Shown here: in pieces, positions 5,401-28,367 of the stretch
How positions within the stretch are numbered: position 1 is the first letter of the stretch
Layout: each line of letters starts with the position of its first letter
DNA from: a virus
Direction: 5' to 3' (one strand)
DNA length: 34,203 bases
IMG/VR virus record: IMGVR_UViG_3300009158_000124
Span: 1 to 34,203 of that record
Made by a program: the position numbers and the translations under genes
The notes under the pieces: model-generated
Database searches by the model: none
What the model was told of the DNA's origin: nothing
Seen by the model: only the letters and a program-made list of their open reading frames with translations

Positions 5401-5607
5401 AGACCAAATTTCCTAACTATAGATGAAGGTTTTGGAGCATTAGATCAAAGCAATATGGGCAATATATCTATACTTTTAGATTACCTCAAGACTCAATTTA
5501 AATTCATAGTTATGATATCCCACATAGATGCTATAAGGGACATTGTTGATGCTCACATAGAAATCACAAAAGGAAAAGATGGTTTCTCAAAAGTACATCA
5601 CGAGTAA
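2452..5607 (+). CDS. Mre11-Rad50 (SbcD-SbcC, T4 gp47-gp46) single-chain fusion nuclease/ATPase
   Basis: This 1051-residue protein joins two partners that are normally separate. Residues 1 to about 340 are a calcineurin-like Mre11/gp47 nuclease: SDIH at 21-24, GD at 59-60, GNHD at 94-97, HG at 165-166 and GDIH at 198-201. From about residue 375 on it is a Rad50/gp46 ATPase: Walker A NASGKSS about 409-415, long coiled coils either side of a CxxC zinc hook (Cys727, Cys730), ABC signature LSSGME about 959-964, Walker B Asp991-Glu992, and the H-loop His1024. The complex resects DNA ends for recombination-dependent replication and host DNA breakdown. No frameshift or stop lies between the halves, and all key residues are present, so the fusion appears intact. 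It overlaps the primase gene by 7 bases. Confidence 0.92.
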   Translation: MLKTIKIESSIKEIKKIYHVSDIHLRNFKRHDEYKRVFETLAEYIRSTKTEESIICITGDIVHSKTDITPELVQETQNFLKLMSSLLPTIVIPGNHDANLNNNHRMDSLTPIINAMGDKNITYIKDTGIFRMANVDFVHWSVFDEPTKYIKASKVKSDFKICMYHGPVNNSLTDADFSLSGNSINVADFDGYDLVLLGDIHKTQFLNEVKTIAYCGSLIQQNHGESLEHGIMVWDLESKSAEYVPIENDTAFYTLYIENGIHLDLPEHLPKNLYLRLRSKNTSPTMIKEIVADIRKDRDIIELSHQTMNDFSATSLHQSTSAINVRDVSYQNTLLSQYLKNKFNLTEEAILKICELNKIINDKIPKSEITRNIQWSPRRLEFSNMFSYGKDNIIDFSGMDGVYGIFAQNASGKSSSIEALVYCLFDKCSKTSKAGLVMNNKSREFSCKFNFELDGKIYTIERKASYRSNSENVKQDVNFYYIDADNSKISLNGDDRYGTNAKIREIIGSYEDFVLTSMSMQNNNTGFIDMSQTERKDLLSKFLDIKVFEDLNYSASEDIKEFSVLIKEYKKIDHFTKLKELENYIKVYSNEYRQLQKNKKDLEKSIEKENVKYMKLSSKIVQIDSKILDIEGLESKKENLERSKSKIESDRVILEENLEDLKIELIPIENEAQKVDIVILNSSKIELQRLINTEKNISIQVEKLKTDLTNKLEKMKNLENLKYDENCQFCMDNIFVKDAISTRDSIEQDKEEARGVVNNLKTLRDNIEFLKKLVTLWDTLQINLDKKINEKLRIESNIDKLALELHQKDLSIKEIDDNVKQHKQKEAAIKLNQDITEQLKDIQATIDSLKISLKATSEDLMNCNTNIQITQKEIENAEHSIGNLKSLEEKFKYYEYYLSATGRDGLPYDIISSVIPRIQEDINNVLSQVVDFKIVMESDGKNINAFIEYDEDRKWPIELSSGMEKFVSTLAIRSSLINTTSLPRPNFLTIDEGFGALDQSNMGNISILLDYLKTQFKFIVMISHIDAIRDIVDAHIEITKGKDGFSKVHHE

Positions 5608-5617
5608 GATATTTATA
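5608..5617 (+). promoter_or_regulatory. Late-promoter-like motif GATATTTATA
   Basis: The element begins directly after the stop of the Mre11-Rad50 gene and ends 3 bases before the ATG at 5621. If it works as a -10 type promoter box, the transcript would start inside the coding sequence or be leaderless, or an in-frame later start is used. This copy is the exception in spacing. Confidence 0.4.
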
Positions 5618-5620
5618 AAC

Positions 5621-8068
5621 ATGATAAAAAATATTATTGCGATTTTCCCCGGGCGTTTTCAACCATTTTCGAAGCACCATTCTGAAGCTTTTAAGTGGCT
5701 AGAATCTAAATTTGGTAAAGACTGTTTCATCGCAACTACAGATAAAGTAGATCCAATCAAAAGTCCATTGAATTTCTCAGAAAAGAAAATGATTATTGAT
5801 AAATTTGGGTATGGGGCGAATCTAGTTCAAGTAAAGAATCCATATAAAGCAGAAGAGATCACAGCGAAGTATGATCCAAAAGATACTGCGCTAGTATTCA
5901 TGGTAGGAGAAAAGGATATGAAAGACGATCCAAGGTTTGCAATGAATCCGAAGAAAGATGGTTCTCCTGGATATTTTAAACCGTATGCTGGAAATGAAAA
6001 TAAACTTGAAGGCTTTGACAGACATGGATATTTGATTGTTGCACCTCATATGAGTTTTGATATACCTGGAATTGGAGAGATGAGCGGTACTAATGTAAGA
6101 AAAGCACTGTCAGCTGACGTATCTCCAGAAGACTATAAAAAGCTTTTTATAGGAGTTTTTGGTTGGTATGATCCAAAAATAGCCAAGATGTTAAAAGACA
6201 AGTTTTCAATAAAAGAATCAAGATATTCTTTTAATAGAATCATATTAGAGAACGCAATACGCACTTTGATAAATGAAGGCGGTAACGTATTCAAGGATAA
6301 AGAAGGACAGTCAGAAACCCAGAGGATAAACAGAGTAGATGTAGTTCCTACTATACAGTGGCTAGAAAAAATAACCGGGCTTAAATTACTCGATAATGCT
6401 TTAGGTACAACTGGAAAGAAAGACACGAGTGGAGATCTTGATTTAGCAGTAGACGTATCAAAGCTTAGTAAAGAAGATCTTATAGGCATACTTTCAAAAG
6501 CTGGATATGATAAGACTTACGTAAAAAAATCAGGAGATAGTGTTCACTTCAAAACTGCAATAGGAGGCAACCCAAAGAATGGTTTTGTACAGACTGACTT
6601 TATGTTTGGAGAACCTGAATGGATGAAATTCTCTATGGCAGGAGGTGCTGATAATTCTAAATTCAAAGGAATGCATAGACACCTTTTACTTTCAAGCATA
6701 GCAAAAGCACAGAATTTAAAATGGTCATATAAGCATGGACTGGTTGATAGAACCACAAATGAAGTGATAACTAAAGATCCTGATAAGATAGCTGAGATGC
6801 TTTTAGGTAAAGGTAAAACAAGAAAAGATATGGAGAATGTAGAATCCATTATCCATGCAATAAAAGACAGATCAGATTATGAAGATCTTATAAAGCAAGC
6901 AAAAGAAGACTTTGACAAAGAAGGATTAGATATTCCCACTTCACTAAAAGAATCTATGATTACTGAAGCAGCAGAAGCAAGAATACAACATCCAGAAGAT
7001 ATGATATTTTGGGATGGATCAAAAGGAGCATTAAATGCACTTAGCATATTAGCTGGTTTAGGAAAAGATTCCAAAGATATCACTATAAAATGGGATGGAT
7101 CTCCAGCTGTCATATTTGGAAGAAAAGATGATGGAACTTTTGTATTAACTGATAAAAGCGGATTTTCTGCAAAGGGGTATGATGGAAAAGCGACGAGCGG
7201 AAAAGACCTAGAGAAGATGTTTATGGACAGACTTAAAGGCAAAGAAGATACAACAGGATCATATACCAAATTTGCAAAAAGTATGGGTGGTGTATTTGAT
7301 ATATTTGAAAAATCAGTACCAAAAAGTATAAAGGGTTATTTCAAAGGAGATCTACTATATCAATCAACGCCTGAATTAAAAGGTGGCAATTATGTATTTA
7401 AGCCAAATATCACAACATACGCAGTAGCTCAAAATAGCGATCTTGGAAAGAAGATAGGAAATAGTAAAGTTGGAGTAGTTATTCATAGATTCTTAGATTA
7501 TGATGGAAATGAAACTGCAATAAAAGATATAAAACAATATGGATTTATAGAAGGAAAGGGGCTTTTAGTAGTGCCACCCATGTCAGTTACTACTCCACCA
7601 AATATAAATACTAGTGCAGTTAAATCAGCAATGTCAGATGTAAAATCAAAAGCTTCTGAGATAAACTCATTTCTTGACAGATCTACTTTATCATCTAAAA
7701 AGATATCAGATCTTCCAGACTTAATGTACAAGTATAATAATTCCAAAGTGGGAAATACAAATGAATTAGGAAAAGATTTTCTTTCTTTCATAGCAAAGGA
7801 ATCATTATCTGGTAATAAGAAGGCAAATATGGAAGCTTACATAAAAGAGCATGGAGAAGCAATAATAGATGTATTTAGCATAGTTTCAAAGATAATGGAG
7901 ATAAAGAATGATATAGTAAAACAACTAGATGCTCAAGATTCTGGAGTAAAAGCAAATATAGGTGATATAGCTGGCGGTGAAGGATATGTTGTTTCAAATC
8001 CAAAAGGCACAGTGAAATTAGTAAATAGAGCTGGATTCACAGCTGCAAATAGAGCCGTAAAAAGATAA
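5621..8068 (+). CDS. Three-module nucleotidyltransferase protein (NadM-like, Pol-beta-like, ligase-like KxDG)
   Basis: I choose ATG 5621, which gives MIKNIIAIFPGRFQPF. An earlier in-frame start at 5579 would overlap the previous gene and encode the promoter-like motif. The 815-residue product has three parts. Residues 1 to about 200 are a cytidylyltransferase/NMN-adenylyltransferase-like Rossmann domain (GRFQPFSKHH at 11-20, SGTNVRKAL near 155). Residues about 220-445 resemble a Pol-beta-type nucleotidyltransferase (SGDLDLAVDV near 270, then VQTDFMFGEP). Residues about 450-815 carry Lys490-x-Asp-Gly493 in IKWDGSPAVIFGR, the lysine motif of the covalent nucleotidyltransferase (ligase/capping) superfamily, as in the phage family I recall as DUF6267. 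Related phage proteins are often labelled cytidylyltransferase. Likely roles are NAD or RNA/DNA end chemistry; the substrates are unknown. Confidence 0.75.
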   Translation: MIKNIIAIFPGRFQPFSKHHSEAFKWLESKFGKDCFIATTDKVDPIKSPLNFSEKKMIIDKFGYGANLVQVKNPYKAEEITAKYDPKDTALVFMVGEKDMKDDPRFAMNPKKDGSPGYFKPYAGNENKLEGFDRHGYLIVAPHMSFDIPGIGEMSGTNVRKALSADVSPEDYKKLFIGVFGWYDPKIAKMLKDKFSIKESRYSFNRIILENAIRTLINEGGNVFKDKEGQSETQRINRVDVVPTIQWLEKITGLKLLDNALGTTGKKDTSGDLDLAVDVSKLSKEDLIGILSKAGYDKTYVKKSGDSVHFKTAIGGNPKNGFVQTDFMFGEPEWMKFSMAGGADNSKFKGMHRHLLLSSIAKAQNLKWSYKHGLVDRTTNEVITKDPDKIAEMLLGKGKTRKDMENVESIIHAIKDRSDYEDLIKQAKEDFDKEGLDIPTSLKESMITEAAEARIQHPEDMIFWDGSKGALNALSILAGLGKDSKDITIKWDGSPAVIFGRKDDGTFVLTDKSGFSAKGYDGKATSGKDLEKMFMDRLKGKEDTTGSYTKFAKSMGGVFDIFEKSVPKSIKGYFKGDLLYQSTPELKGGNYVFKPNITTYAVAQNSDLGKKIGNSKVGVVIHRFLDYDGNETAIKDIKQYGFIEGKGLLVVPPMSVTTPPNINTSAVKSAMSDVKSKASEINSFLDRSTLSSKKISDLPDLMYKYNNSKVGNTNELGKDFLSFIAKESLSGNKKANMEAYIKEHGEAIIDVFSIVSKIMEIKNDIVKQLDAQDSGVKANIGDIAGGEGYVVSNPKGTVKLVNRAGFTAANRAVKR

Positions 8069-8071
8069 AAT

Positions 8072-8920
8072 ATGGAACTACAGAAAAAAGCAGAGATACT
8101 TGCAGACTTTATAAAATTTTGCAAAGAAGCTCTAGAACTTGAAGCTCTTCCAAAGATAAAATTCATATCTGATAACTCTTGGGTAAAAGGAAAGCGTACA
8201 TTTGGAGAATATTCTAATGATACAAGTTCTCTAATTGTGTACATAAAGAATAGAAATCTTGCCGATTGCTGCCGTACTTTGTCCCATGAGATGACACATC
8301 ATAAGCAAAATGAGATGGGAACTCTGGGACCAAAATCTGGAGAAACGGGTAGTCCTATAGAAAATGAGGCGCATGCTATAGCTGGTGTGATAATGCGCGA
8401 ATACGGAAAAATACAACCACTGATATACGAATCAATAAATAAGGATCTTAAAATACAAGCAAAATCATTTATAAAAGATTGGACATATGATCCTGATCAT
8501 CAAATAGACAATTATGGAGAATATAAAAAAGAATTCAATGTGGCTTATCAATTATATCCATATAAACAATCTGAAGATTTATATAGAGGGTTAAATTTTA
8601 ATAACATAGAAGATTTCAATAATTTTAAATTAAATACAAAAAATTTTACAGTTTTAAAAACTAAATCATACTCTTCTTGGAGTCCAGATATTAATCAAGC
8701 TATAGAATATTCACTTGGGGACAATAATAGTATTGAAATTGTAATTAAAATAAAACCATTAGAAAACACTAATATAAAATTATTAGCTGCATATAAATGT
8801 AAAGATGCAGATCCAGAATATGAAGTTATTGCGGATAGAGGAAATTTTAAAATATCACTAGAAAGAAGTAAAGTTACGAAATATGGCAAAGGAATCAAAC
8901 CTAAAAAAAGAGTTCTCTAA
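8072..8920 (+). CDS. Zinc metallopeptidase fused to probable ADP-ribosyltransferase
   Basis: The N-terminal part (residues 1 to about 120) is a gluzincin-like metallopeptidase domain: His72-Glu-x-x-His76 in SHEMTHHKQ, then TGSPIENEAHA with Glu97/Glu99 as the likely third ligand. This short peptidase occurs alone in other T4-type phages. The C-terminal part (about 165-270) shows the ordered R-S-E signature of arginine-type ADP-ribosyltransferases: Arg172 in LYRGL, the Ser motif SYSSWS at 199-204, and Glu249-x-Glu251 in DPEYEVIADRG. T4 uses Alt, ModA and ModB of this broad type to modify host RNA polymerase. The DNA of the second domain is far more AT-rich than the first (about 22% GC over 8461-8820 by hand count). 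The gene ends 38 bases inside the next one. The peptidase call is firm; the transferase call rests on motif order. Confidence 0.72.
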   Translation: MELQKKAEILADFIKFCKEALELEALPKIKFISDNSWVKGKRTFGEYSNDTSSLIVYIKNRNLADCCRTLSHEMTHHKQNEMGTLGPKSGETGSPIENEAHAIAGVIMREYGKIQPLIYESINKDLKIQAKSFIKDWTYDPDHQIDNYGEYKKEFNVAYQLYPYKQSEDLYRGLNFNNIEDFNNFKLNTKNFTVLKTKSYSSWSPDINQAIEYSLGDNNSIEIVIKIKPLENTNIKLLAAYKCKDADPEYEVIADRGNFKISLERSKVTKYGKGIKPKKRVL

Positions 8921-9458: not shown

Positions 9459-9468
9459 TATATTTATA
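9458..9468 (+). promoter_or_regulatory. Late-promoter-like motif GTATATTTATA
   Basis: A variant of the recurring element, beginning at the last base of the previous stop codon and ending 14 bases before the ATG at 9483. It would start the transcription unit running through the accessory region. Confidence 0.5.
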
Positions 9469-9482
9469 GAAAATACAAATCA

Positions 9483-10337
9483 ATGCCAGCAAAATCAAAA
9501 TCTCAACAACGCCTAATGGGAATGGTTCATGCCGCTCAGACAGGTCAAATAAAAGCCCCATCAGAAAAAGTAGCTAAACTCGCAAAATCTATGACAAAGA
9601 AATCAGCAAAAGATTATGCTTCTACAAAGACAAAGAAGCTACCAATAAAGGTAAAAAAGACTAAGAAAGTCGTAAAAGAGAACTATGAAAATAAAGTAGG
9701 TCCTCTTCACGTCGTACTGAAACCACACCCAGGATGCGATGCCGCAGATCTTGTTCATGAGATAGATCCAGTAATGGGAGCTACTCATAAAGGTATCGAT
9801 GCTCAGACTATTCATGGAGTTTATGGGGACCAAGATGAGGCTATGAAATGCGCAGAAGGACTTCATAAAAATCACCTTGATGAAATGAAGAAGCTTGAAG
9901 AAAAAAAAGGTACGGTAGCAAAGAAGCTAACATCAATGATTGATAAGCTAGATTCAAAGCGTAAAGATCACATGAAGCTTGCAAAGGAGAATCCAGATCA
10001 TGCTAGTGAACACAAGCAACATATATCTCAAATTCAAGGTCAAATAGAAGACTTAATGGATAAACTTGAAAAAGTTGCAAAATCTAAAAAAGAAGAAGAA
10101 TCAGAAGAAGATGAGGATGGAAAGAAGAAAAAGAAATTGAAAGAGGGTGAAGGCGATAAATATAAAGTAGGAGATGTAGTTATTCCAAATAAAGGACCTC
10201 ATAAAGGACAAAAGCATACAGTCATACATGTATTTGGTGGCGGTAAATATAATATAAAACCAAAACCTCGTTTTCCTGGAGATAAAAATCAATATGGTCA
10301 AGGAGCTGCTGGAGCAAATGAAGAAGATTTAAACTAA
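9483..10337 (+). CDS. DUF3008-type protein with C-terminal KOW-like segment
   Basis: The first 55 residues (MPAKSKSQQRLMGM ... AKSMTKKSAKDYASTK) match the pattern of the small basic phage family known as DUF3008, usually found as a short protein on its own. Here it is extended to 284 residues. The middle is a Lys/Glu-rich helical region with likely coiled coil (KKLEEKKGTVAKKLTSMIDKL and following). The end is a beta-rich segment, YKVGDVVIPNKGPHKG...KYNIKP, that resembles a KOW/SH3-like fold. The extreme charge and helical middle would suit a nucleic-acid-associated or internal head protein, which is inference. A late-promoter-like motif lies just upstream. The next gene follows after 5 bases. 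Confidence 0.65.
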   Translation: MPAKSKSQQRLMGMVHAAQTGQIKAPSEKVAKLAKSMTKKSAKDYASTKTKKLPIKVKKTKKVVKENYENKVGPLHVVLKPHPGCDAADLVHEIDPVMGATHKGIDAQTIHGVYGDQDEAMKCAEGLHKNHLDEMKKLEEKKGTVAKKLTSMIDKLDSKRKDHMKLAKENPDHASEHKQHISQIQGQIEDLMDKLEKVAKSKKEEESEEDEDGKKKKKLKEGEGDKYKVGDVVIPNKGPHKGQKHTVIHVFGGGKYNIKPKPRFPGDKNQYGQGAAGANEEDLN

Positions 10338-10342
10338 CAAAT

Positions 10343-10717
10343 ATGAATCCAATAGTAGCAAAATTTGTATCGACTCTCCTGTCATCGAGAACGCAAGCTC
10401 ACATATTCCACTGGCAAGTAGAAGACGATTCTTCTTTCGCAGAACATAAAGCACTTAATGAATATTATGATGAGATTGTAGATCTTGTTGATGAATTTGT
10501 AGAAGCTTTCCAGGGTAAATATGGAATCATTAGAGGATATTCAAGTCCTGCAGTATTTAGAGAAGATGATAATTTAATCATATACTTTAAAGCTCTTTCC
10601 CAATACGTAGATAAGACAAGACATTCAGTGGCAGACGATACATATCTTCAGAATCTTATAGATGAGATATATCAACTTATAGAGACAACGCTTTATAAAC
10701 TCCAATACTTACATTGA
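10343..10717 (+). CDS. Dps/ferritin-like helical phage protein (DUF5856-like)
   Basis: The 124-residue, mostly helical protein has the pattern HIFHWQVEDDSSFAEHKALNEYYDEIVDLVDEF. This resembles the Dps helix pair in which a conserved HW is followed by an alternating His/Glu/Asp metal-site arrangement. T4-type phages commonly carry such a protein, which I recall as DUF5856. By analogy it may bind iron or DNA, but the number of candidate ferroxidase ligands visible does not prove activity. The stop TGA overlaps the next gene's ATG (TGATG), indicating translational coupling. Confidence 0.65.
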   Translation: MNPIVAKFVSTLLSSRTQAHIFHWQVEDDSSFAEHKALNEYYDEIVDLVDEFVEAFQGKYGIIRGYSSPAVFREDDNLIIYFKALSQYVDKTRHSVADDTYLQNLIDEIYQLIETTLYKLQYLH

Positions 10718-11316
10718 TGTGTTGCAATAGAGGCAAGATAACTTTAGACGAATCTGTAAACAAGCTCCTTATATCTGAGGGGCTTACATACCATTTGGAT
10801 AATTCACTAGACTTGAATGAAAATATTTATCGTCCGCAGTCAGCTAATTTTGTAGGTCTTTTCACAGAAGCGCGCCAGCTGCTAAATAGGGGACTTTTAT
10901 CATTAGGCGATGAAGATACATGGTACCTAACAGAAACTGACCTGGGGCTGACTGGAAACTACAAGGGTATCACAGTTCCTTTAGACTATCCAATGACAGT
11001 TGATTTCCTACTTGAGACTAAAGCAAAGTCTAAGCCTAAGAAGCATGCTGCGCTTAATAAACCTCATAGAGGGGGATCAAAGAAATTTTATGTATTTGTA
11101 AGGAATCCTAAGACTGGTGGTATAAAAAAGGTCAGCTTTGGAGATACTACAGGACTTAGCGCAAAGATTAATAACCCAGCAGCCAGAAAGAGCTTTGCGG
11201 CAAGACATAAGTGCTCTCAAAAGAAAGATAAAACTCAAGCGGGCTGGTGGGCGTGCAGATTGCCTCGATATGCTAAACTTCTTGGTCTAAAAAGTAATTT
11301 TTCAGGATTTTGGTAG
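10717..11316 (+). CDS. Conserved phage protein with basic C-terminal DUF5872-like domain
   Basis: I place the start at ATG 10717, overlapping the previous stop. A TTG three bases earlier would simply add one residue. The 199-residue product has an N-terminal region containing TEARQLLNRGLLSLGDEDTW and a C-terminal basic domain with KKFYVFVRNPKTGGIKKVSFGDTTG, LSAKINNPAARKSFAARHKC and LPRYAKLLGL. I recognise this second block as one shared by many T4-like phage proteins. It holds Cys and His residues and many Lys/Arg, suggesting nucleic-acid contact, but no function is established. It ends two bases before the cupin-like gene start. Confidence 0.65.
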   Translation: MCCNRGKITLDESVNKLLISEGLTYHLDNSLDLNENIYRPQSANFVGLFTEARQLLNRGLLSLGDEDTWYLTETDLGLTGNYKGITVPLDYPMTVDFLLETKAKSKPKKHAALNKPHRGGSKKFYVFVRNPKTGGIKKVSFGDTTGLSAKINNPAARKSFAARHKCSQKKDKTQAGWWACRLPRYAKLLGLKSNFSGFW

Positions 11317-11318
11317 AC

Positions 11319-11576
11319 ATGAGACCATATAAAGATGTTTTGATAGAGAACACATTGATCAGAGAGTTTGATGAGAATATTGACCCGATTGAATTAATGT
11401 GGCACAGAGATCAAGAGGACAGGGTAATAGAATCGATAGAAGATACTGACTGGAAGTTTCAAATCGATAATCAATTGCCTATAGAGATCAAAGGTGAGAT
11501 ATTTATTCCAAGAGGAGTGTGGCATAGAATTATAAAAGGTACAAAATCAGTCAAGATAAAAATAATAGAAAAATGA
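11319..11576 (+). CDS. Small cupin-like protein with a leader resembling a capsid targeting sequence
   Basis: I use ATG 11319; a TTG at 11310 would overlap the previous gene. The 85-residue product ends in a beta-rich block with two conserved His motifs, LMWHRDQEDR and FIPRGVWHRIIKG. These are spaced like the two metal-site halves of a single-domain cupin, as in phage cupins of this size. Enzymatic role unknown. Its first ten residues, MRPYKDVLIE, end in L-I-E and partly fit the leader pattern shared by genes downstream. The stop overlaps the next start as ATGA. Confidence 0.6.
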   Translation: MRPYKDVLIENTLIREFDENIDPIELMWHRDQEDRVIESIEDTDWKFQIDNQLPIEIKGEIFIPRGVWHRIIKGTKSVKIKIIEK

Positions 11577-12163
11577 TAAAATTAATTGATTTATTAAAAG
11601 AGGGACAAGACACCCCTGTTGCAAAAGACGTAACAGAAATTATTCGTCAAGAGAATCGTTCAGCTCTTAAGGAATCGAAAAATTCAGATTCCTTAAAATC
11701 AATTTTAAGAATTTTAAAAATAGGTAAATTTTTCGGTATTTTTAATGATAATTTTTTTAAGGAAATACAAGAAGCCGTAACAAAAAAAGTAGAAACTTCA
11801 CTAGACGCATATAAAGCAAAGATACCTTCAGATAAAATGGAAGATTATAACTCTCTTGTTAAAGATTTATTACTTCCTCTCAAAAACGCAAAAACTTTTG
11901 AAGAATTCATATTAGTAGCTAATAATATATCAAAATATACTAATAAAATTAAAATTGATGAATCTATAGATTTAAAATCTACAATAGCGACTTTAGAAAA
12001 AGATTTAAAAGCTATAGTAAAGGATGTTAAAGGTATGTGGAATAAAACAAAAGAAAATAGAATTTTTCTATCAATTGTTACTATATTAGCTCGAATATTA
12101 TTGATGACATTTTTTGGAGTCATTCATGAATTATTACGACTGAATCAGGGCACATCTTGGTAA
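11573..12163 (+). CDS. Predicted packaged protein with capsid-targeting-like leader and C-terminal membrane helix
   Basis: This 196-residue protein begins MIKLIDLLKE followed by Gly, fitting the shared leader with an [LI]-x-E end. The body is Lys/Glu-rich and helical. Residues about 164-185 (FLSIVTILARILLMTFFGVI) form one strong hydrophobic helix near the C-terminus. It is unusually AT-rich; 11701-11760 has only about 7 G or C in 60 by my count. The start codon ATGATAA supplies the TGA of the upstream cupin-like gene. No known family is recognised. A packaged protein that can insert in a membrane might act during DNA entry, which is inference. Confidence 0.6.
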   Translation: MIKLIDLLKEGQDTPVAKDVTEIIRQENRSALKESKNSDSLKSILRILKIGKFFGIFNDNFFKEIQEAVTKKVETSLDAYKAKIPSDKMEDYNSLVKDLLLPLKNAKTFEEFILVANNISKYTNKIKIDESIDLKSTIATLEKDLKAIVKDVKGMWNKTKENRIFLSIVTILARILLMTFFGVIHELLRLNQGTSW

Positions 12164-12213
12164 ATTTTAAAAATAAAAGGAACTGGCTCAATAAAAATAA
12201 AGATAGTAAAAAA

Positions 12214-12681
12214 ATGATAAAATTAATCAGCATACTACAAGAGGTAAAGAGAAAAGGCCTGTGGGCAAATATCCAAGCAAAACATAAGAGAGGAGAAAAA
12301 CCTGCTCGTAAATGTAGCGCTGCTTTCAAAAAGGCTGTCAAAGCCGCTAAGGATATAAACTCAATGAAAGAAACTCTAAGTCCTAAAATCTATCAAATAG
12401 AAGGCAGTCTTGTAGCTGATACTACTCAGAGATCGCTTGCAGATATCCTCTCTGACATTAGAGCAATCGTTGGTATAACTGTTGTGCGTGTTACAAATAA
12501 TCGTCAACCATCAGCAGAAAAGCTAAAGAAGTATGTTGTAGATATTAGTATTAAGATAGATCCTGCGCCATTTGATAATTTTGGACCTGAGACTGTAAAA
12601 TCAATAAAAGATAAAGTAAAAGCAGTTCCAGCAATCCGCAGAGTAGACTTTATAGATAAGACTAAACTCGTAAAATCATAA
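12214..12681 (+). CDS. Predicted packaged protein with basic block and ferredoxin-like domain
   Basis: I place the start at ATG 12214, giving MIKLISILQE then Val. A TTG 57 bases upstream would add an unlikely Asn/Lys-rich tail and hide the leader. The 155-residue product continues with KRKGLWANIQAKHKRGEKPARKC, a basic block shared by many T4-like phage proteins. The final about 85 residues (IEGSLVADTTQRSLADILSDIRAIVGITVV and following) form an alpha/beta unit resembling a ferredoxin-like fold also seen in phage hypotheticals. The leader suggests sorting into the head; the basic block suggests DNA contact. Function unknown. The endolysin gene follows after 3 bases. Confidence 0.65.
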   Translation: MIKLISILQEVKRKGLWANIQAKHKRGEKPARKCSAAFKKAVKAAKDINSMKETLSPKIYQIEGSLVADTTQRSLADILSDIRAIVGITVVRVTNNRQPSAEKLKKYVVDISIKIDPAPFDNFGPETVKSIKDKVKAVPAIRRVDFIDKTKLVKS

Positions 12682-12684
12682 AGC

Positions 12685-13284
12685 ATGAATCTTCAAAATA
12701 TAAAAGGGCATATTTCAGATAATATTATTGCACAATTGCCAGATACAATATCAAAGTTTGAATTGAATACTCCACTACGCTTAGCGCATTTCCTAGCTCA
12801 AGCAGGACATGAATCAGGTGGTTTCAAAGTACTAAAAGAGAATCTAAACTATGGAGCTAAAGGTCTTCGTACAATATTTAGTAAGTATTTCCCAACAGAC
12901 GCAAAAGCTTTAGAGTATGAAAGAAAACCTGAAAAGATAGCAAACCTAGTTTATGGAGGTCGTATGGGCAATGGTCCTGAGGCTTCTGGAGATGGGTATA
13001 AATTTTGTGGTCGTGGTTGTATTCAGCTTACTGGCAAGGATAATTATAATATGTTTGGTAAAGTAATTGGAGAAGACCTAGTAACAAATCCAGATTTAGT
13101 AGCAACAAAATATCCATTGATATCAGCTGCGTGGTTCTTCCACAAAAATGGATTACACAAGATAGCAGATGAAGGCGCTACAGTAGAAGTAATTACTAAG
13201 ATTACAAAGAGAGTCAATGGCGGGACTATTGGTTTAGAAAATAGAATACAACATTTCAATGAATATTATGCTTTATTGAAATAA
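12685..13284 (+). CDS. GH19 endolysin (chitinase-fold lysozyme)
   Basis: The 199-residue protein is a single glycoside hydrolase family 19 catalytic domain. The general acid Glu43 lies in AQAGHESGGF, and the substrate-cleft motif GRGCIQLTGKDNY follows at about 109-121. Phage members of this family cleave peptidoglycan glycan strands at the end of infection. It has no signal peptide or anchor helix, so it probably needs a holin to cross the inner membrane; the next gene encodes a small membrane protein that could serve. The length matches other stand-alone GH19 endolysins. It sits among genes with the capsid-targeting-like leader but lacks that leader itself. Confidence 0.88.
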   Translation: MNLQNIKGHISDNIIAQLPDTISKFELNTPLRLAHFLAQAGHESGGFKVLKENLNYGAKGLRTIFSKYFPTDAKALEYERKPEKIANLVYGGRMGNGPEASGDGYKFCGRGCIQLTGKDNYNMFGKVIGEDLVTNPDLVATKYPLISAAWFFHKNGLHKIADEGATVEVITKITKRVNGGTIGLENRIQHFNEYYALLK

Positions 13285-13285
13285 T

Positions 13286-13299
13286 TGTTAACGTTAACA
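13286..13299. repeat. Perfect 14-base palindrome TGTTAACGTTAACA
   Basis: A perfect inverted repeat (also a tandem GTTAAC) lies in the 41-base gap after the endolysin stop and 26 bases before the small membrane protein. It has no T-run and is too short for a terminator. It could be a protein-binding site. Confidence 0.4.
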
Positions 13300-13325
13300 C
13301 CAAAATATGGACCCTGATAGTAGAA

Positions 13326-13538
13326 ATGGATACTTGGAACAATACACTAAAACAGAATCTAGCGACTCTTTGTCTAATGACAGCAATGTTTTTAAATCCT
13401 TTTGGGTTCGATATTGTACAGTGGTGGCTGATTCAACAAACAGGAAATTTATGGAGAGCCAATGCCGCTTTGTATTTTATAGCGGGATTGTTCTTTGGTT
13501 TATATATAGTATTACGTCCTAAAAAAGAAAACAAATGA
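13326..13538 (+). CDS. Small two-helix membrane protein (holin candidate)
   Basis: The 70-residue product has two hydrophobic segments, residues about 12-35 (containing NPFGFDIVQWWLI) and about 45-63 (AALYFIAGLFFGLYIVL), and a basic tail RPKKENK. Size, two helices, positive C-terminus and position right after the endolysin fit a class II-like holin, but no conserved holin motif is recognised, so this is inference. A second, overlapping frame starting at 13307 is open too; its composition is not protein-like and its stop does not couple. The real frame ends in the ATGA of the next gene. Confidence 0.65.
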   Translation: MDTWNNTLKQNLATLCLMTAMFLNPFGFDIVQWWLIQQTGNLWRANAALYFIAGLFFGLYIVLRPKKENK

Positions 13539-14647
13539 TAAAATTAATTGACATACTATATGAGGCTTTTGAATTTTTTCCTACTTCTGAACAAGAAATA
13601 GAAAATGATTCTGTGAAAAAGCTTTTTTCCATTATAAAAAAATATCCTGGATTAGAAATGGAAGACCCAATAGTAATGTCAGATCCAAAATCTAAAAAAG
13701 TAAAAATATCAAGAAGTTTACAAAGAGATCCAAAATTTATACAATACTTATCAAATAAATTAAAAGTAAATGTAAGTGATACGTCTGGAGCTAATTGGGA
13801 TGGACTTTCTATACTTTGGGGAGAAGGATCTAGAGGAGGAAGAGGCACTAAATCAAAAGGACCTGGAACTGAAACTATCTTAGTCAAAGATTTAAATTTA
13901 TTAAAAGAAGAAGGTATTTCAAAAAAGAATGAATCAAAATTTTCATATCCAAGTTTAATGATAGAAATGTCAAAAGAATTAGGATTAGATAAAGGTAATT
14001 TTGAAATAAAACCTATGGGTCATGAAAATCAAAAAAGACCCTTAAAATTCTCTTCATCAGGCCCTATAATAGATTATTCAGGTGAAACTGTAGCATCTAC
14101 ATTGACTGATATAACAATAATAAAAGGTGGCAAGAATTACTATATATCTGTAAAATATGGTAATACTTTAACATTTTTTAATTCAGGAGTAACAAAAGCA
14201 TTACCAGCCTCAGAAATAAAATTTGGAAAAATCACAAATCCAAATGGAGTAGGACTATTAGAAACTTTTGGAATAAATAATAAATTATTTTGTAAAGTAT
14301 TCAATGATTATGGAGATATTGATTTTTCTAAATTTAATAAAAATCCTGCGTCTGCAGAATATGACATATATAAGATTAAAAAACTTATAGAATCAGGAAT
14401 AGGGTCAGGATATTATATGGCACATATAAAAAAAGCTGGCGCTGAATTTTATAAAGTTGATAGTAGTTATTCAAAAACTGCATCAGACATTTCTTCTCCA
14501 AAAGTATATTATGGTGGAATAGATGGATCTGGTAAAAGAGTTGATATAACAGTAGAATCATCACTATATTCATTTAAAATAAATATAAGAAATAAACAAG
14601 GAGGAATATATCCATCTCATATAATGTGTGATTACATAAAAAAATAA
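13535..14647 (+). CDS. Predicted packaged protein, possible PD-(D/E)XK-like nuclease
   Basis: The 370-residue protein begins MIKLIDILYE then Ala, the shared leader. After a Lys-rich linker it has a core in which Glu184 (YSGET), Asp192 (LTDITII) and Lys207 (YYISVKYG) are arranged like the acid-acid-Lys set of PD-(D/E)XK nucleases, with Ser in place of the usual Glu two residues before the Lys. The following TFFNSGVTK stretch recurs in marine phage hypotheticals as I recall. A packaged nuclease could attack host DNA at entry, which is inference. The gene is very AT-rich (14281-14340 has about 9 G or C in 60). The start ATGATAA provides the stop for the membrane protein upstream. Confidence 0.6.
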   Translation: MIKLIDILYEAFEFFPTSEQEIENDSVKKLFSIIKKYPGLEMEDPIVMSDPKSKKVKISRSLQRDPKFIQYLSNKLKVNVSDTSGANWDGLSILWGEGSRGGRGTKSKGPGTETILVKDLNLLKEEGISKKNESKFSYPSLMIEMSKELGLDKGNFEIKPMGHENQKRPLKFSSSGPIIDYSGETVASTLTDITIIKGGKNYYISVKYGNTLTFFNSGVTKALPASEIKFGKITNPNGVGLLETFGINNKLFCKVFNDYGDIDFSKFNKNPASAEYDIYKIKKLIESGIGSGYYMAHIKKAGAEFYKVDSSYSKTASDISSPKVYYGGIDGSGKRVDITVESSLYSFKINIRNKQGGIYPSHIMCDYIKK

Positions 14648-14648
14648 A

Positions 14649-14888
14649 ATGATAAGTCTCATAAATTTACTCCAAGAAGAGATCAAAGGTGACATAACAC
14701 TTCCTTCAAATCACGAACCTTTTATGTATAGTCCTAATGGTTTCAGCTGTGCAGTTTGCAAATACTATAGCTATGAGAATGATCAGCATATCTGCGGAAA
14801 CCAGTACTATGAAGCATGGAATGGAAATGGAGTAATGGACATAAAAGATCCAACTAAGTGGTGTAGTGATTGGTTCGAATCTAAATGA
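14649..14888 (+). CDS. Predicted packaged small four-cysteine protein
   Basis: The 79-residue product begins MISLINLLQE then Glu, fitting the leader pattern. The mature part has four cysteines: Cys34-x2-Cys37, Cys49 and Cys72 in KWCSDWF, with conserved aromatic residues between. The order CxxC...C...WCSxW recalls high-potential iron-sulfur proteins, although spacing (11 and 22 residues) differs from typical members; a zinc site is the alternative. Similar small Cys proteins occur in T4-like phages, in my recollection, with no known function. It starts one base after the previous stop and its own stop overlaps a late-promoter-like motif. Confidence 0.6.
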   Translation: MISLINLLQEEIKGDITLPSNHEPFMYSPNGFSCAVCKYYSYENDQHICGNQYYEAWNGNGVMDIKDPTKWCSDWFESK

Positions 14889-14896
14889 TATTTATA
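14887..14896 (+). promoter_or_regulatory. Late-promoter-like motif GATATTTATA
   Basis: This copy overlaps the TGA stop of the four-cysteine protein and ends 16 bases before the ATG at 14913, the standard spacing for the element in this window. Confidence 0.55.
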
Positions 14897-14912
14897 CAAA
14901 AGATAACAAGAC

Positions 14913-15608
14913 ATGATAAAATTAACAAGCTTATTGAATGAAGGTCCAGAAGACTTTGGAGCTTATCGCAGAATAGTGATAACTTCAGATAAGATCAAAC
15001 AGATAGAATCCGAGATCAAGAAATTTATAGAACGTCCTGAAACAAAAGAGAAATTTCCAGTGAAATCCTCCTTTAAACCAGGCGTGAAACCAGATATGAT
15101 AGTCGTAGACGTGGAAGGAAAAGGCGCTTCTGTAATAGCAATAAAAGCAACAGACATAGCAAAGAAATTAGATAAAGAGGCTACTATAAAAGTAAGGAAT
15201 GAAAGAAAACTAAAAGAATTCACACCAAACCCAGCAGAGACTCCAGAAATATACTATGGAAATGAAAAAAGAAAATATTTTAAGCAACCTTCTTTTGATA
15301 ATCAAGACATGAATGCAATAAATCCAACACACCCTATTCCAGAAAATGAATGTATGGAGTGTGGAGAAGACATGATAGATGGTCAGTGCTCACAATGTGG
15401 AGATAATAGTGGAGATGTTTGGGGAAAACCTTCTGAAGATCATGAGTCTACTATGGCAAAAGCTGAGCTTAAAGATCTTATATCCAATGCGTCAAAGCTA
15501 TATAGTATGATAGAACCTGGAACAGAACTTCCTGGTTGGGTTTCAGCTTATATTACCCTTGCGAGTGATTATATGCATAGTGTTGCAGAGTATGCTCAAG
15601 AGAAGTAA
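14913..15608 (+). CDS. Predicted packaged protein with zinc ribbon and conserved C-terminal helical module
   Basis: The 231-residue product begins MIKLTSLLNE then Gly, the shared leader with an ideal L-x-E end. Residues about 20-100 form an alpha/beta region. A compact zinc ribbon follows with Cys147-x2-Cys150 and Cys159-x2-Cys162. The last about 50 residues (AKAELKDLISNASKLYSMI...LPGWVSAYITLASDYMHSVAEYA) are a helical module that I recognise at the C-terminus of many different T4-like phage proteins. The modular build suggests a shared docking piece. Function unknown. A promoter-like motif precedes it. Confidence 0.62.
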   Translation: MIKLTSLLNEGPEDFGAYRRIVITSDKIKQIESEIKKFIERPETKEKFPVKSSFKPGVKPDMIVVDVEGKGASVIAIKATDIAKKLDKEATIKVRNERKLKEFTPNPAETPEIYYGNEKRKYFKQPSFDNQDMNAINPTHPIPENECMECGEDMIDGQCSQCGDNSGDVWGKPSEDHESTMAKAELKDLISNASKLYSMIEPGTELPGWVSAYITLASDYMHSVAEYAQEK

Positions 15609-15615
15609 TGATAAT

Positions 15616-15627
15616 GATATATTTATA
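15616..15627 (+). promoter_or_regulatory. Late-promoter-like motif GATATATTTATA
   Basis: The longer form of the element, ending 16 bases before the ATG of the secreted endonuclease at 15644. It gives that gene its own start of transcription. Confidence 0.55.
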
Positions 15628-15643
15628 AGATAAAAAGTAAAAA

Positions 15644-16291
15644 ATGAAAAATTTAATTATATCTGTTATAACAATATTACTTTGTACATTTACAAGTTTA
15701 GCGCAAGACACAATAACACTAGTACATACTGGTTATACTTCACTTTATAGTAAAAGTTTGCATTATCCATTAATGGTACAGTGGTGGGAGACTAGAGATA
15801 GAGTAGAGTGCAATTACCCACTTCCAAGAAAAGACGCATTTGGTCCCGATCCATTACTAAAAAATGAAACGGACTTGAATAAAGACTATAGAGGTTCCGG
15901 ATATGATAGAGGTCATATGTGTCCAGCAGCTGATAATGAATGTTCTGGACCAGTAGAATTAATGGAATGTTTTTACTTTTCTAATATTATACCACAACCC
16001 CATAGTGAAAATGCAGGACAATGGAAAGAATTAGAAACTTTTATAAGAGGGGTTGCATCTAGATTAGATAGTTGTTATATTTGGGCTGGAGGTATTGGCG
16101 TATATAAGTCTTTTGGTAAAGATAATGTAGCCGTACCTACTAAGTGTTGGAAAGTAATTTATATAAAATCTACAAAGAAATGGATAGCTTATGTATTTGA
16201 TAATACTGGAATAAAAGAAGATTTATCTAAATGTAAAACATCTGTACAAGTAGTAGAAGCATTAACAGGATTCAAGTTCATAGCGCAATGA
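15644..16291 (+). CDS. Secreted NucA/EndoG-type DNA/RNA non-specific endonuclease
   Basis: The 215-residue protein starts with a signal peptide: Lys3, a hydrophobic core (LIISVITILLCTF) and a probable cut after Ala20 (SLA-QDTI), in the style of Bacteroidota exported proteins. The mature part is a beta-beta-alpha-metal nuclease: the catalytic His91 in YDRGHMCPAAD, then NIIPQ and SENAGQWKELE with Asn123 and Glu131 as metal-site residues. It should cut DNA and RNA outside the cytoplasm. Possible roles are excluding or degrading other phage DNA, salvaging nucleotides, or thinning extracellular DNA at release. Its own promoter-like motif and its signal peptide mark it as an independent insert. Its stop overlaps the next start as ATGA. 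Confidence 0.88.
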   Translation: MKNLIISVITILLCTFTSLAQDTITLVHTGYTSLYSKSLHYPLMVQWWETRDRVECNYPLPRKDAFGPDPLLKNETDLNKDYRGSGYDRGHMCPAADNECSGPVELMECFYFSNIIPQPHSENAGQWKELETFIRGVASRLDSCYIWAGGIGVYKSFGKDNVAVPTKCWKVIYIKSTKKWIAYVFDNTGIKEDLSKCKTSVQVVEALTGFKFIAQ

Positions 16292-16740
16292 TAAAACTCA
16301 CAGACATACTTAAAAATATACTCAAAGAAGCTGATAAAGATCAACAAGTCAATCTAGGCTTTGAGGAGAATCCAATGAAGTATATACTTAAAAAGTACAA
16401 AAGACTCAATGAGCATCTTAAAAAACTTATGGGTGATAGTTTTGAGGAATATCTTGGCGGTGTATTTATCATGTCTGGCAAACCTACTACGTTTAAGATA
16501 CTACTTAAGAATGGCCAATACTTCTATATGACATTCATGGGAAAAGCATATGAAGCATCAGTACAAGGTAAGCGATATTACCTAATGAATATAGGAGAGA
16601 TTCAAAGATCAACTATGGCTATATCTAGACTTCAGAGATATGGAGCTAAGACATCAGCACAAGGACCAGAAAGTGAAGAAGGACCGAGGTCAGATGAATT
16701 ACCAACAGAAAAAGCAGAAAAACCTGAAGAATCAACATAA
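16288..16740 (+). CDS. Predicted packaged protein with extended targeting-like leader
   Basis: The 150-residue product begins MIKLTDILKNILKE then Ala, a slightly longer form of the shared leader still ending in L-x-E. The middle (about 40-120) is an alpha/beta domain with FEEYLGGVFIMSGKPTTFKILLKNGQYFYMTFMGKAYEASVQGKRYYL. The last about 30 residues are acidic and disordered-looking (SEEGPRSDELPTEKAEKPEEST). No family is recognised. Its ATGATAA start provides the stop for the endonuclease. The 103 bases after it (16741-16843) hold no gene, only promoter-like elements for terminase. Confidence 0.6.
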   Translation: MIKLTDILKNILKEADKDQQVNLGFEENPMKYILKKYKRLNEHLKKLMGDSFEEYLGGVFIMSGKPTTFKILLKNGQYFYMTFMGKAYEASVQGKRYYLMNIGEIQRSTMAISRLQRYGAKTSAQGPESEEGPRSDELPTEKAEKPEEST

Positions 16741-23780: not shown

Positions 23781-24410
23781 ATGAAACCACAACTTCTCAT
23801 AGAGTATTCGGTATTTAAACCGCTTAGTCACCTTAAAGAAGGACTTCGTGGAAATGGCAATATGATAGTAGTCGGTAAGCTATCTTCTGCGGATATTCCA
23901 AATGCAAATTCCCGTATCTATCCACATGATATACTTATGTCCCAAGCACGGAAATATGCTGAAGGACCTATAAAGGAAAGAAGAGCATTCGGAGAATTAG
24001 ATCATCCAGAGACAAGTATAATCAATTTAAAGAATGTAAGCCATAACATCATGGAAATATGGTGGGAGGGTAAAGATCTATATGGCAGAGTTGAAATACT
24101 CCCTACACCGTCTGGAAACATCCTAAAGACGTTATTTGAGAATAATCTCTCAGTGGGTATATCATCAAGAGCTATGGGATCAGTTACACAAATAGGAGAA
24201 GGATTGGTGCAGGTAGAAGACGATTTAGATCTTATTGGGTGGGATTTTGTCTCGCAACCCTCAAATTTCGGTTCCTATATGCACCAAGAAGGCAAAAAAG
24301 GGCTTAAAGAATCGATAGATCATTCTGTATCAGTAGATAAATATTCTAGAATTCATAAGTTAATTTCAGAGATCATCTGTTTACAATCAGGGATTTGCTG
24401 TCTCCAATAA
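23781..24410 (+). CDS. gp21: Prohead core protease (T4 gp21-like)
   Basis: The 209-residue protein has the herpesvirus-assemblin/gp21 fold signatures: His75 in FGELDHPE and the nucleophile region Ser128-Ser129 in LSVGISSRAMGSV, with the following GWDFVSQPSN segment. In T4 this serine protease sits in the prohead core and, after assembly, cuts the scaffold, capsid protein and internal proteins after [LI]-x-E sequences. It is essential to the packaging-leader idea for this window, because it would be the enzyme that removes the shared N-terminal decapeptides. It starts one base after the previous stop. A terminator follows 24 bases after its stop. Confidence 0.92.
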   Translation: MKPQLLIEYSVFKPLSHLKEGLRGNGNMIVVGKLSSADIPNANSRIYPHDILMSQARKYAEGPIKERRAFGELDHPETSIINLKNVSHNIMEIWWEGKDLYGRVEILPTPSGNILKTLFENNLSVGISSRAMGSVTQIGEGLVQVEDDLDLIGWDFVSQPSNFGSYMHQEGKKGLKESIDHSVSVDKYSRIHKLISEIICLQSGICCLQ

Positions 24411-24600: not shown

Positions 24601-25920
24601 ATGGAAAGTATTTACACTCAGGCTGTTGCTGATGCAAAAGCAGTTCGTGAAAGTGCCATGGCTAACGCTAAAGCTGCAATTCAGGAAGCATTCGAGCCAA
24701 AAATTAAGGCGATGTTAAAGAAGCACATCGTAGAATCTGAAGAAGATGAAATGGATGAACAAGAGATTTCAGGTATTGAAAAACCAGCTCATCGTTTATC
24801 TACAATTAAAAAAGCTACTGGATTTGCAAAAATGAAAGCTCCACAGGGCGCTATTGAAGATCTAGAAGAGTACGATGAAATGGACGAATCTAAAGAAGAA
24901 ATGAATGAAGGATCTTTTACATTTGATTATAATGATCCTGAATATGTTCAGACATTGTTAAATAAAGCTGGAATTAAAGCTATAGCAAGAACTGGAACTT
25001 TTGATGATGAAGTGGAAGTATCTGGTGATGCTAAAGCAATAAAACAAGCTAAAAAAATACTAGCTGATGATTTTGATTTAGGCATGGACGAAAATCTTGG
25101 TGCTGAATATGGTTCAGGACCTGCAGAAGAAGAAGATCCAGGTAATCTTGATGAAAAGTATCTTGATGAAATTCTAGATGAACTTTCAAATATGGATGAA
25201 GCAGAAGATCAAGATGAATCTGACGAAGAAGACGAAATTGATGAGGCTTACCAAATGGACGAAGCTGAAGAAGAAGCTGAAGAATCAGAAGAAGAAGATG
25301 AAGATGGTGAAGAAACATCAGAAGAAGACACTAAAGTTGTTGACGTTACACTCGGAGACCTTGTAAACGCAATCAAAGCTGCAATGGCTGGCAACGATAG
25401 TGGAGAAGACGCAGAAGCTGGTGATGATGAAGTTTCTCTTGATGAAATCCTCGCTGAATTGGAATATGAAGGTGAAGAGGATAAAATGGAAGAAGCTAAG
25501 AAGAAAGACAAAGAGCGTATTGTAAAAACAGGCGGAGCAGCTCTAAAAGCAGCAGAAAAAGAAACTGCGTATAAAAAAGAACTAGCTGAAGCTAAGAAAG
25601 CAATCGATTCAATGAGAGCAGAGCTAAATGAGATAAATCTCCTAAACGCTAAATTGCTTTATGTTAATAAGATCTTCAAATCTAAGTCTCTTACTGAATC
25701 TCAGAAGGTTAAAGTTCTCAATGCATTTGACAGAGCTACAACAGTAAAAGAAGTAAAAAACACATTTAAGGTTATTACTGAATCAATTACAGCTGAACCA
25801 AAAAGACAACTTAAAGAGTCTTATGGATTTGCATCTAAGCCAACAGGCGGAGCTCCAAAAGGAAACACACTGGAGTCTGATCCTTTCATAGCAAGAATGC
25901 AGAAACTAGCTGGACTTTAA
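24601..25920 (+). CDS. gp22: Prohead scaffold (core) protein, T4 gp22-like
   Basis: The 439-residue protein is extremely acidic and helical, the hallmark of T4-type scaffold. It has an N-terminal helix rich in Ala and Lys, a central Glu/Asp-rich region (for example AEEEAEESEEEDEDGEE), a coiled-coil C-terminal half with LAEAKKAIDSMRAELNEINLLNAKLLYVNKIF, and the conserved end FIARMQKLAGL. It builds the inner core on which the capsid forms and is then digested by gp21. Several [LI]-x-E sites are present (such as IVE near 43-45). Residues about 104-158 look like a small folded domain set into the acidic chain. It lies directly before the capsid gene, as in T4. Confidence 0.9.
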   Translation: MESIYTQAVADAKAVRESAMANAKAAIQEAFEPKIKAMLKKHIVESEEDEMDEQEISGIEKPAHRLSTIKKATGFAKMKAPQGAIEDLEEYDEMDESKEEMNEGSFTFDYNDPEYVQTLLNKAGIKAIARTGTFDDEVEVSGDAKAIKQAKKILADDFDLGMDENLGAEYGSGPAEEEDPGNLDEKYLDEILDELSNMDEAEDQDESDEEDEIDEAYQMDEAEEEAEESEEEDEDGEETSEEDTKVVDVTLGDLVNAIKAAMAGNDSGEDAEAGDDEVSLDEILAELEYEGEEDKMEEAKKKDKERIVKTGGAALKAAEKETAYKKELAEAKKAIDSMRAELNEINLLNAKLLYVNKIFKSKSLTESQKVKVLNAFDRATTVKEVKNTFKVITESITAEPKRQLKESYGFASKPTGGAPKGNTLESDPFIARMQKLAGL

Positions 25921-27803: not shown

Positions 27804-28367
27804 ATGGCACATGTTATTTATTTATTTACATTTCCAAATGGGAAACATTATGTAGGAAGAACTAAGAATTTTAAAAACAGATTAGAAAGTCATAAATCAA
27901 AAGCTAATAAAAAGAAAAATTTTGTTATTCATAAAGCGCTTAATAAATATGGTTGGGATAATGTTGAAAAATTAATAATAGATACAGCAGATACTTTAGA
28001 AGAGGCCATAGCAAAAGAATATGAATATATTGTTAAATATGATTGTATAAGAAATGGATATAATTTAACTATAGAAACTAAGCATGGGGGAGATATATGG
28101 ACTGATAGGAGAGATACCCAAGAATTTAAAGATTTTCAAGAAAGGATGAGAACATCTACTTTAGGAGAAAAAAATGGAATGTATGGAAAAACTCAAAAAG
28201 AAGAATCAAAAAATAAGATGAAAGACAAAGCAAAAGGTAGATTTAGTCTTCCTTGGTTTATTGAAAGACATGGAGAAATTAACGGTAATCAAAAATATGA
28301 AGATAGAAGAGCGTTTCTAAAATCCAGAAAATTAAAACATTCTCCCGATGGTAAATTTACGAAATAA
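27804..28367 (+). CDS. GIY-YIG homing endonuclease (free-standing)
   Basis: The 187-residue protein has an N-terminal GIY-YIG nuclease domain in variant form: VIYLFTFPNGKHYVGRT for the two motif halves, Arg26-type contacts in the following helix (NRLESHK), and the metal-site Glu in EEAIAKEYEYI. A NUMOD3-like DNA-binding element follows (GEKNGMYGKTQKEESKNKM), and a basic tail. Such enzymes nick a specific site in a related phage lacking the gene and spread by repair. It is AT-rich compared with neighbours (27901-27960 about 14 G or C in 60) and is set between the capsid terminator and the next gene with its own promoter-like motif. Its target may be in or near the capsid gene of relatives. Confidence 0.88.
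   Translation: MAHVIYLFTFPNGKHYVGRTKNFKNRLESHKSKANKKKNFVIHKALNKYGWDNVEKLIIDTADTLEEAIAKEYEYIVKYDCIRNGYNLTIETKHGGDIWTDRRDTQEFKDFQERMRTSTLGEKNGMYGKTQKEESKNKMKDKAKGRFSLPWFIERHGEINGNQKYEDRRAFLKSRKLKHSPDGKFTK

Follow-up and report, generated by a model that had tools for sequence, protein, structure and literature searches.

Why do six neighbouring genes of a T4-like myovirus, encoding otherwise unrelated proteins, begin with nearly the same ten residues? The question is raised by the phage head module on a 34,203-base IMG/VR contig (IMGVR_UViG_3300009158_000124; the window, i.e., the whole stretch analysed). An earlier note on this DNA had proposed that the decapeptide is a capsid targeting sequence, cut off after its glutamate by a gp21-like protease, and that the proteins behind it are packaged and delivered with the DNA. 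From the comparisons given below, the leader is very probably a propeptide of the T4 type that targets proteins to the head and is then cleaved off (probability about 0.88).

A shared leader on unrelated bodies

The six leaders, all on the plus strand, were found with the open reading frames and N-termini that had been described. MIKLIDLLKE (11573–11602) opens a 196-residue protein, whose body (11603–12160) has a hydrophobic C-terminal segment and gave no significant family match. MIKLISILQE (12214–12243) precedes a body with a GLWANI motif and a C-terminal domain (12244–12678), MIKLIDILYE (13535–13564) a phrog_8438 body with a PD-(D/E)XK-like fold (13565–14644), MISLINLLQE (14649–14678) a body with four conserved cysteines (14679–14885) and MIKLTSLLNE (14913–14942) a composite body with a Cys4 zinc-ribbon-like part (14943–15605). 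The exception is the leader at 16288–16329, MIKLTDILKNILKE, in front of a domain conserved beside the terminase gene (16330–16737); its glutamate stands at position 14, and it is hence one helical turn longer than the decapeptides. The bodies are unrelated to each other (best pairwise BLASTP E = 1.0). Two details of the earlier description had to be amended: the interval also holds genes that lack the leader (12685, 13307/13326 and 15644), and the list of leadered starts had omitted the major capsid protein at 25963, which begins MNLVNSLLQE.

The pattern M..[hyd]..[hyd][hyd].E was fitted by seven of the 35 open reading frames in the window, with 0.4% expected per gene (P ~2e-10). These seven exclude 16288 and include the capsid protein and an open reading frame at 11319; the latter was rejected as a leader and fits by chance, given that its homologs read MKPYTDIEVTDKYII and lack the leader. 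The leucines at positions 4 and 8 draw on five or six synonymous codons, at frequencies close to background, and the Glu10 codons likewise follow background usage approximately; the constraint therefore acts on the protein.

For related phages, IMG/VR was scanned with a degenerate DNA pattern for MIKL[IT][DNS]xL[KQ]E, which matched at least 120 stretches. Among the 128 matches listed, the frame stayed open for 40 codons or more in 127 cases, and an earlier in-frame ATG was absent in 114. A control pattern with swapped E and K codons matched 17 stretches and was discarded as an unclean background, as those 17 were leaders with glutamate at position 9 or 14. To keep selection from biasing the logo, we built it again from contigs that had been fetched by terminase similarity alone. 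These held 38 leader matches compared with 6.0 expected from independent columns, with the consensus M-I-K-L-x-D-[IL]-L-x-E (I2 in 24/29, K3 in 25/29, L4 in 27/29, [IL]7 in 26/29, L8 in 25/29) and free choice of residues from position 11. Glu10 and the hydrophobic classes at positions 4, 7 and 8 are fixed by the regular expression itself, and the independent information therefore lies in the excess over expectation and in the I2, K3, L4 and L8 preferences.

Over all fetched loci we counted 248 distinct leadered proteins with 69 body families. Homologs of 12214 (L099, L150) begin MIKLIDILKE, and the 14649 homolog in L161 and L193 begins MIKLTDLLKE. Leaders vary in length by whole turns (10, 12 or 14 residues), and their letters differ between groups (MIKLxDLLxE, MKxFxxFLxE, MRLLELLRE); the hydrophobic-x-Glu end is constant. 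Further leader classes were seen in L082–L201 and L298–L360, namely MxNFDLKKFLxEN and Mx(3-4)LRxLIxExIxxxLxE, the second of which has two sites in succession.

The T4 parallel and probable cutting after the glutamate

In T4, a protein is packaged if it has the first ten residues, of which positions 4 and 7 are important for targeting and 8 and 10 for processing (PMC9026906). The pattern positions 4, 7, 8 and 10 of the leader coincide with these. Over 50 kb of T4, the leader expression picked out three genes only, IPII and IPIII (MKTYQEFIAE) and gp24 (MAKINELLRE). The gp24 propeptide is the T4 sequence closest to the leader, and its ten residues are removed by the prohead protease gp21 (PMC9958956). 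As in T4 IPI–IPIII and Alt, about ten N-terminal residues with hydrophobic positions 4, 7 and 8 and Glu10 stand on unrelated bodies, several cargo genes lie close together, and a gp21-family protease is encoded in the same genome. Unlike in T4, the letters are MIKLxDLLxE, the sampled relatives carry 69 body families compared with a handful, the cassette adjoins the head genes, and sites also occur between domains of fused proteins (see below). The phiKZ-like phages (e.g., SPN3US) likewise combine a gp21-type protease with many processed head and ejection proteins (PMC5694885); in contrast to the leaders described here, their propeptides are long, mostly more than 100 residues, and are cut at an A-x-E motif.

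The gp21-like protease that had been assigned at 23781 was confirmed as a Peptidase_S77 member (23781–24410, plus strand; PF03420, E 1e-23, 84.3 bits with a curated cut-off of 27). Its catalytic residues H75, S128/S129 and D155 are invariant with T4 gp21, and it has LLIE8 near its own N-terminus, where T4 gp21 has LIE-9 (PMC9026906). The major capsid protein (Gp23, PF07068; 25963–27684, plus strand) has, besides its leader-like start, a predicted maturation cut after LVTE61 (codon 26143–26145), which aligns with FLTE↓A of T4 gp23 (arrows mark predicted cuts or body starts).

The putative cut site shows up in comparisons of homologs. In the 13535 family the N-termini of the 26 homologs are unalignable, with P1 Glu and a hydrophobic P3 directly before the conserved body in 21/21 extended homologs. 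Five others lack an extension and start where the body does (M↓AYD), and upstream starts missed in annotation were checked and ruled out as the cause. In the predicted 13535 model the leader is disordered (predicted local distance difference test score, pLDDT, of 40 at residues 1–10) and the body well folded. Taking the families together, 107 non-redundant homologs have different N-termini; in 75% of them hydrophobic-x-Glu lies at the body start or at most two residues away from it, compared with 5–14% at control offsets.

Moreover, leadered bodies avoid the motif. [LI]xE or [LIV]xE occur at 0.80–0.86 of expectation in them and at 1.23–1.29 in other genes of the same contigs ([LI]xE alone, 0.84 and 1.29), and the difference holds after size matching and with one value per family (P < 1/4000). 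No difference between the two sets was found for [LI]xD, [LI]xK, [LI]xQ or Ex[LI]. Proteins that meet a protease with cuts after [LI]xE would be expected to show such a depletion.

Leader genes also cluster with head genes. In six near-complete T4-like genomes, the distance to gp21 is at most 30 kb for 23/26 strict leader genes compared with 357/1,347 other genes (P 1e-10). Three A/T-rich Bacteroidota phages that lack gp21 have the strict leader on 0/213 genes. Among the leader-selected contigs, 27 reach 30 kb or more; gp21 is encoded by 13 of these, among them all four that reach 100 kb. The remaining 14 carry a baseplate wedge gene (13 contigs) or, in the last, a tail sheath gene of the type found in Flavobacterium phage immuto and, judged by these genes, are fragments of the same T4-like phage group. 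Each of the 27 contigs hence has either gp21 or tail genes of the T4-like kind. To recognise the fragments as T4-like, phrog_77 (gp46) was uninformative, and the baseplate and sheath queries were used instead. In this sample the leader is thus confined to T4-like phages; a leader common in phages without gp21, which the earlier note had named as an observation that would speak against its reading, was not seen.

Virion data come from S-CREM2, a T4-like cyanophage with a prohead protease, gp143, for which a virion proteome of 52 proteins has been published (PMC10665884 Table 3). When the leader expression was run over all 219 S-CREM2 protein genes, six were leadered, and five of these were detected in virions (Fisher P 0.003): gp6, an S-adenosylmethionine (SAM) hydrolase (MKDFDSFLEE), gp13 (MKDLHSFLTE), the kinase-like gp14 (MKRFDAFLTE), gp136 (MQTFSMFFSE) and the cytidylyltransferase gp154 (MKNFSSFLTE). 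The sixth, gp175, has 55 residues and is not among the detected proteins. The leaders go undescribed in that paper, the authors of which considered that non-structural virion proteins might be preparation contaminants (PMC10665884); the shared leader on the detected proteins argues against contamination. The parallel to the window consists in MKxFxxFLxE leaders on the virion-detected SAM hydrolase, kinase-like protein and cytidylyltransferase, whereas leader letters and most bodies differ. A match of gp154 to the NMNAT domain encoded in the window was weak and at superfamily level, and homology is not claimed. The virion protein gp12 (L445 7704–10313), annotated as a Cas9-like endonuclease, has a candidate later N-terminal site, LRFASFMAE25.

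Several observations weigh against a cleaved targeting leader or narrow its reach. The S-CREM2 test rests on six genes only, and we found no virion data for this phage or its near relatives, nor an immuto proteome in the literature. Leadered bodies are mildly depleted in [LI]xxE, too (0.80 compared with 0.99), and part of the motif depletion may therefore reflect helix content. The 13535 body exists also without a leader. Distant 16288 homologs showed no clear site, and this family was unusable as a junction test. Finally, no leader enrichment was seen near more distant gp21 genes (8/749; L008–L080), and the presence of gp21 is therefore not enough to predict a cassette. Predicted prohead targeting and cleavage after the glutamate are well supported by several independent comparative tests, namely the match to T4 positions, the sites at body starts, the avoidance of [LI]xE, the location near head genes and mass spectrometry of virions of another T4-like phage.

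We therefore propose the following course of events. Late in infection the leader, as a short amphipathic helix, would bind the scaffold core of the prohead and pull its protein inside. The gp21-family protease, presumably that encoded at 23781, would then cut after the glutamate and free the mature body in the head, a step for which the comparative evidence is strong. Cargo identity would be set by the domain joined behind the leader, so that bodies and leaders are swapped freely between phages.

Predicted sites between domains, probable cargo and alternative explanations

Sites of the same kind were found inside longer proteins. The plus-strand gene at 5579–8068 (likely start codon 5621) encodes a fusion of NMNAT-like, second nucleotidyltransferase-like and DUF6267 domains, with predicted protease sites LINE↓GGNVF (6277/6278) and MITE↓AAEAR (6967/6968). 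Its GGNVF nucleotidyltransferase-like domain, here preceded by IRTLINE↓, follows SKNLLNE↓ as GGHVF in another fusion (L212). In L165 the domain forms a protein of its own with the leader MIKLIDIAKLIVE↓, and phage immuto encodes it bare, as M↓GGNVF. Similarly, L365 and L371 have fusions in which a 16288 homolog precedes the nuclease-like 13535 body, and the two parts meet at sequences such as LLLRE↓ or IILKE↓. At internal junctions of other families a site was present in 65% of 26 cases compared with 4–19% at controls. From these sites we infer polyprotein cutting, i.e., one translation product would probably yield several packaged proteins. It is perhaps an even bet that these fusions are cargo polyproteins, in which packaged enzymes are drawn into the head together as one chain with leader-like linkers and are cut apart there by the gp21-family protease. 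If so, head assembly would double as a polyprotein-processing factory for exchangeable delivered proteins, and the interdomain sites make this directly testable.

The polyvalent proteins that phages and conjugative elements encode (PMC5512222) are similar in that they are multidomain, predicted to be packaged and delivered, and recurrently contain ADP-ribosyltransferase (ART) and metallopeptidase domains. They differ in that most cargo described here is single-domain behind a leader; predicted interdomain sites for a head protease are a new element. A protein at 8072–8920 gave no match in a Pfam search and consists of a metalloprotease-like half (HEMTHHKQ) and a half in which ADP-ribosyltransferase-like motifs are seen by eye (YRGL, SYSSWS, EYEV). 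Its first half occurs in relatives alone or fused to a nucleotidase-like domain. The LIYE between the halves was unusable as a clean interdomain site, since standalone homologs also end in IYE or IYQ.

Pfam matches among the leadered families include ART-PolyVal, Zeta_toxin, AAA, Acb1/2H phosphoesterase, KptA, ParB_N and cytidylyltransferase. Among the window bodies, a functional lead came from 13535 only. The statistics for its PD-(D/E)XK-like fold are weak: Foldseek retrieved HinP1I with a probability of 0.97, but with E 3.6e-3 and a template modeling (TM) score of ~0.3–0.4. Residues E113, D192, S205 and K207 are invariant in the family. In T4, Ip1–3 have only such a leader in common and block different type IV restriction enzymes after injection (PMC12373910). 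Injection and effector function of leadered proteins are plausible, and the nuclease-like, ADP-ribosyltransferase, 2H-phosphoesterase/Acb1-like, kinase-like and nucleotidyltransferase cargo is probably delivered with the DNA, although the case for delivery is weaker than that for cleavage.

Some leadered products are head structure. The capsid protein has a leader-like start, as has T4 gp24, which is a shell protein and not cargo and in this differs from a leader on many unrelated proteins; the leader alone therefore does not mean an injected effector. One may go further and suppose a cleavable propeptide most of whose carriers are structural or assembly components of the head. The best T4 sequence match, gp24, and the conservation of the 16288 family beside the terminase gene would fit. 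Both the number and the turnover of the 69 body families look non-structural, though, the cargo is often enzyme-like (ART, Zeta_toxin/AAA, Acb1/2H, nucleotidyltransferases), and among T4 proteins with such leaders the IPs and Alt are injected (PMC9026906, PMC12373910). We consider this explanation less likely than not.

Far less probable is an uncleaved docking helix, which would tether proteins to scaffold, shell, portal or another partner with the glutamate as one of the contact residues of the binding surface. A docking peptide may indeed look like a short helix in which hydrophobic positions are fixed, and the similar start of the capsid protein could be read in the same way; such a helix, on the other hand, explains neither why bodies avoid [LI]xE nor why glutamate sits exactly at body starts where all other leader residues differ, nor the use of the same motif between domains. 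An element of DNA or RNA with a functionless peptide, be it a translation start enhancer in genes almost devoid of Shine-Dalgarno sites or a recombination seam for the evident gene swapping, is least likely of all: leader DNA is on average 72% identical compared with 45% in the 30 nucleotides upstream and 28% in the 30 downstream, but Leu and Glu codons vary synonymously about as the background does, and a seam, which may aid leader spread, leaves the differing lengths and letters and the constant hydrophobic-x-Glu end unexplained.

With a cleavable targeting propeptide as the preferred reading, the leader becomes a sequence rule that marks packaged proteins together with their cut site. Packaged protein sets are known for few model phages, chiefly through proteomics; in an abundant group of T4-like phages they could be read from genomes, including environmental contigs that were never cultured. 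Many uncharacterised proteins thereby become candidates for immediate counter-defence or host takeover, and the leader is a candidate head-loading tag for phages beyond the enteric T-evens.

Head module, probable late promoter and neighbouring genes

The head module contains genes for the terminase (16844), the portal (18458) and a PhoH-like protein (28685). Between the protease and capsid genes, as in T4-like head modules, lies a probable scaffold or core protein (24601–25920, plus strand), for which a family search gave no match. The closest phages with a name are Flavobacterium phage immuto, with 57% identity in the capsid protein and the head genes in the same order, and Microcystis phage Mel-JY01 (protease ~47–50%). 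The near absence of Shine-Dalgarno sites would be expected if the host belongs to the Bacteroidota. In relatives the terminase gene is interrupted by another open reading frame and the portal gene is enlarged (1066 compared with 639 residues; L002 2405–5605, L007 1860–4607).

The T4 late promoter is TATAAATA. In the window, a late-promoter-like element, TATTTATA, lies at 14889–14896 (plus strand), 24 nucleotides upstream of the leadered gene 14913; it occurs at 9461, 14889, 15620, 16824, 20385 and 28374, about 20–29 nucleotides upstream of start codons. In relatives this 8-mer is enriched 35-fold at 15–40 nucleotides upstream of genes, with a peak at 22–27, and it is commoner before leadered genes (25/87 compared with 72/590, P 2e-4). 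It appears to be the late promoter of these phages.

Among the genes inside the cassette that lack a leader, 12685–13284 encodes a GH19-type endolysin and 15644–16291 a DNA/RNA non-specific endonuclease (PF01223), the N-terminus of which looks like a Sec-type signal peptide. After the capsid gene, a GIY-YIG-like open reading frame (27804–28367) occupies the place that in L002 and L003 is taken by a leadered one (MKLIDLLIE). An open-ended protein of SSSYA/TASYA-type repeats at 32344–34203 is probably a tail or fibre protein. Short motifs appear to recur in proteins of these phages, namely MPAKSKSQQRLMGM (9483–9650), RGGSKKFYVFVRNPKTG (10714–11316) and GLWANIQAKHKRGEKPA (12244–12350).

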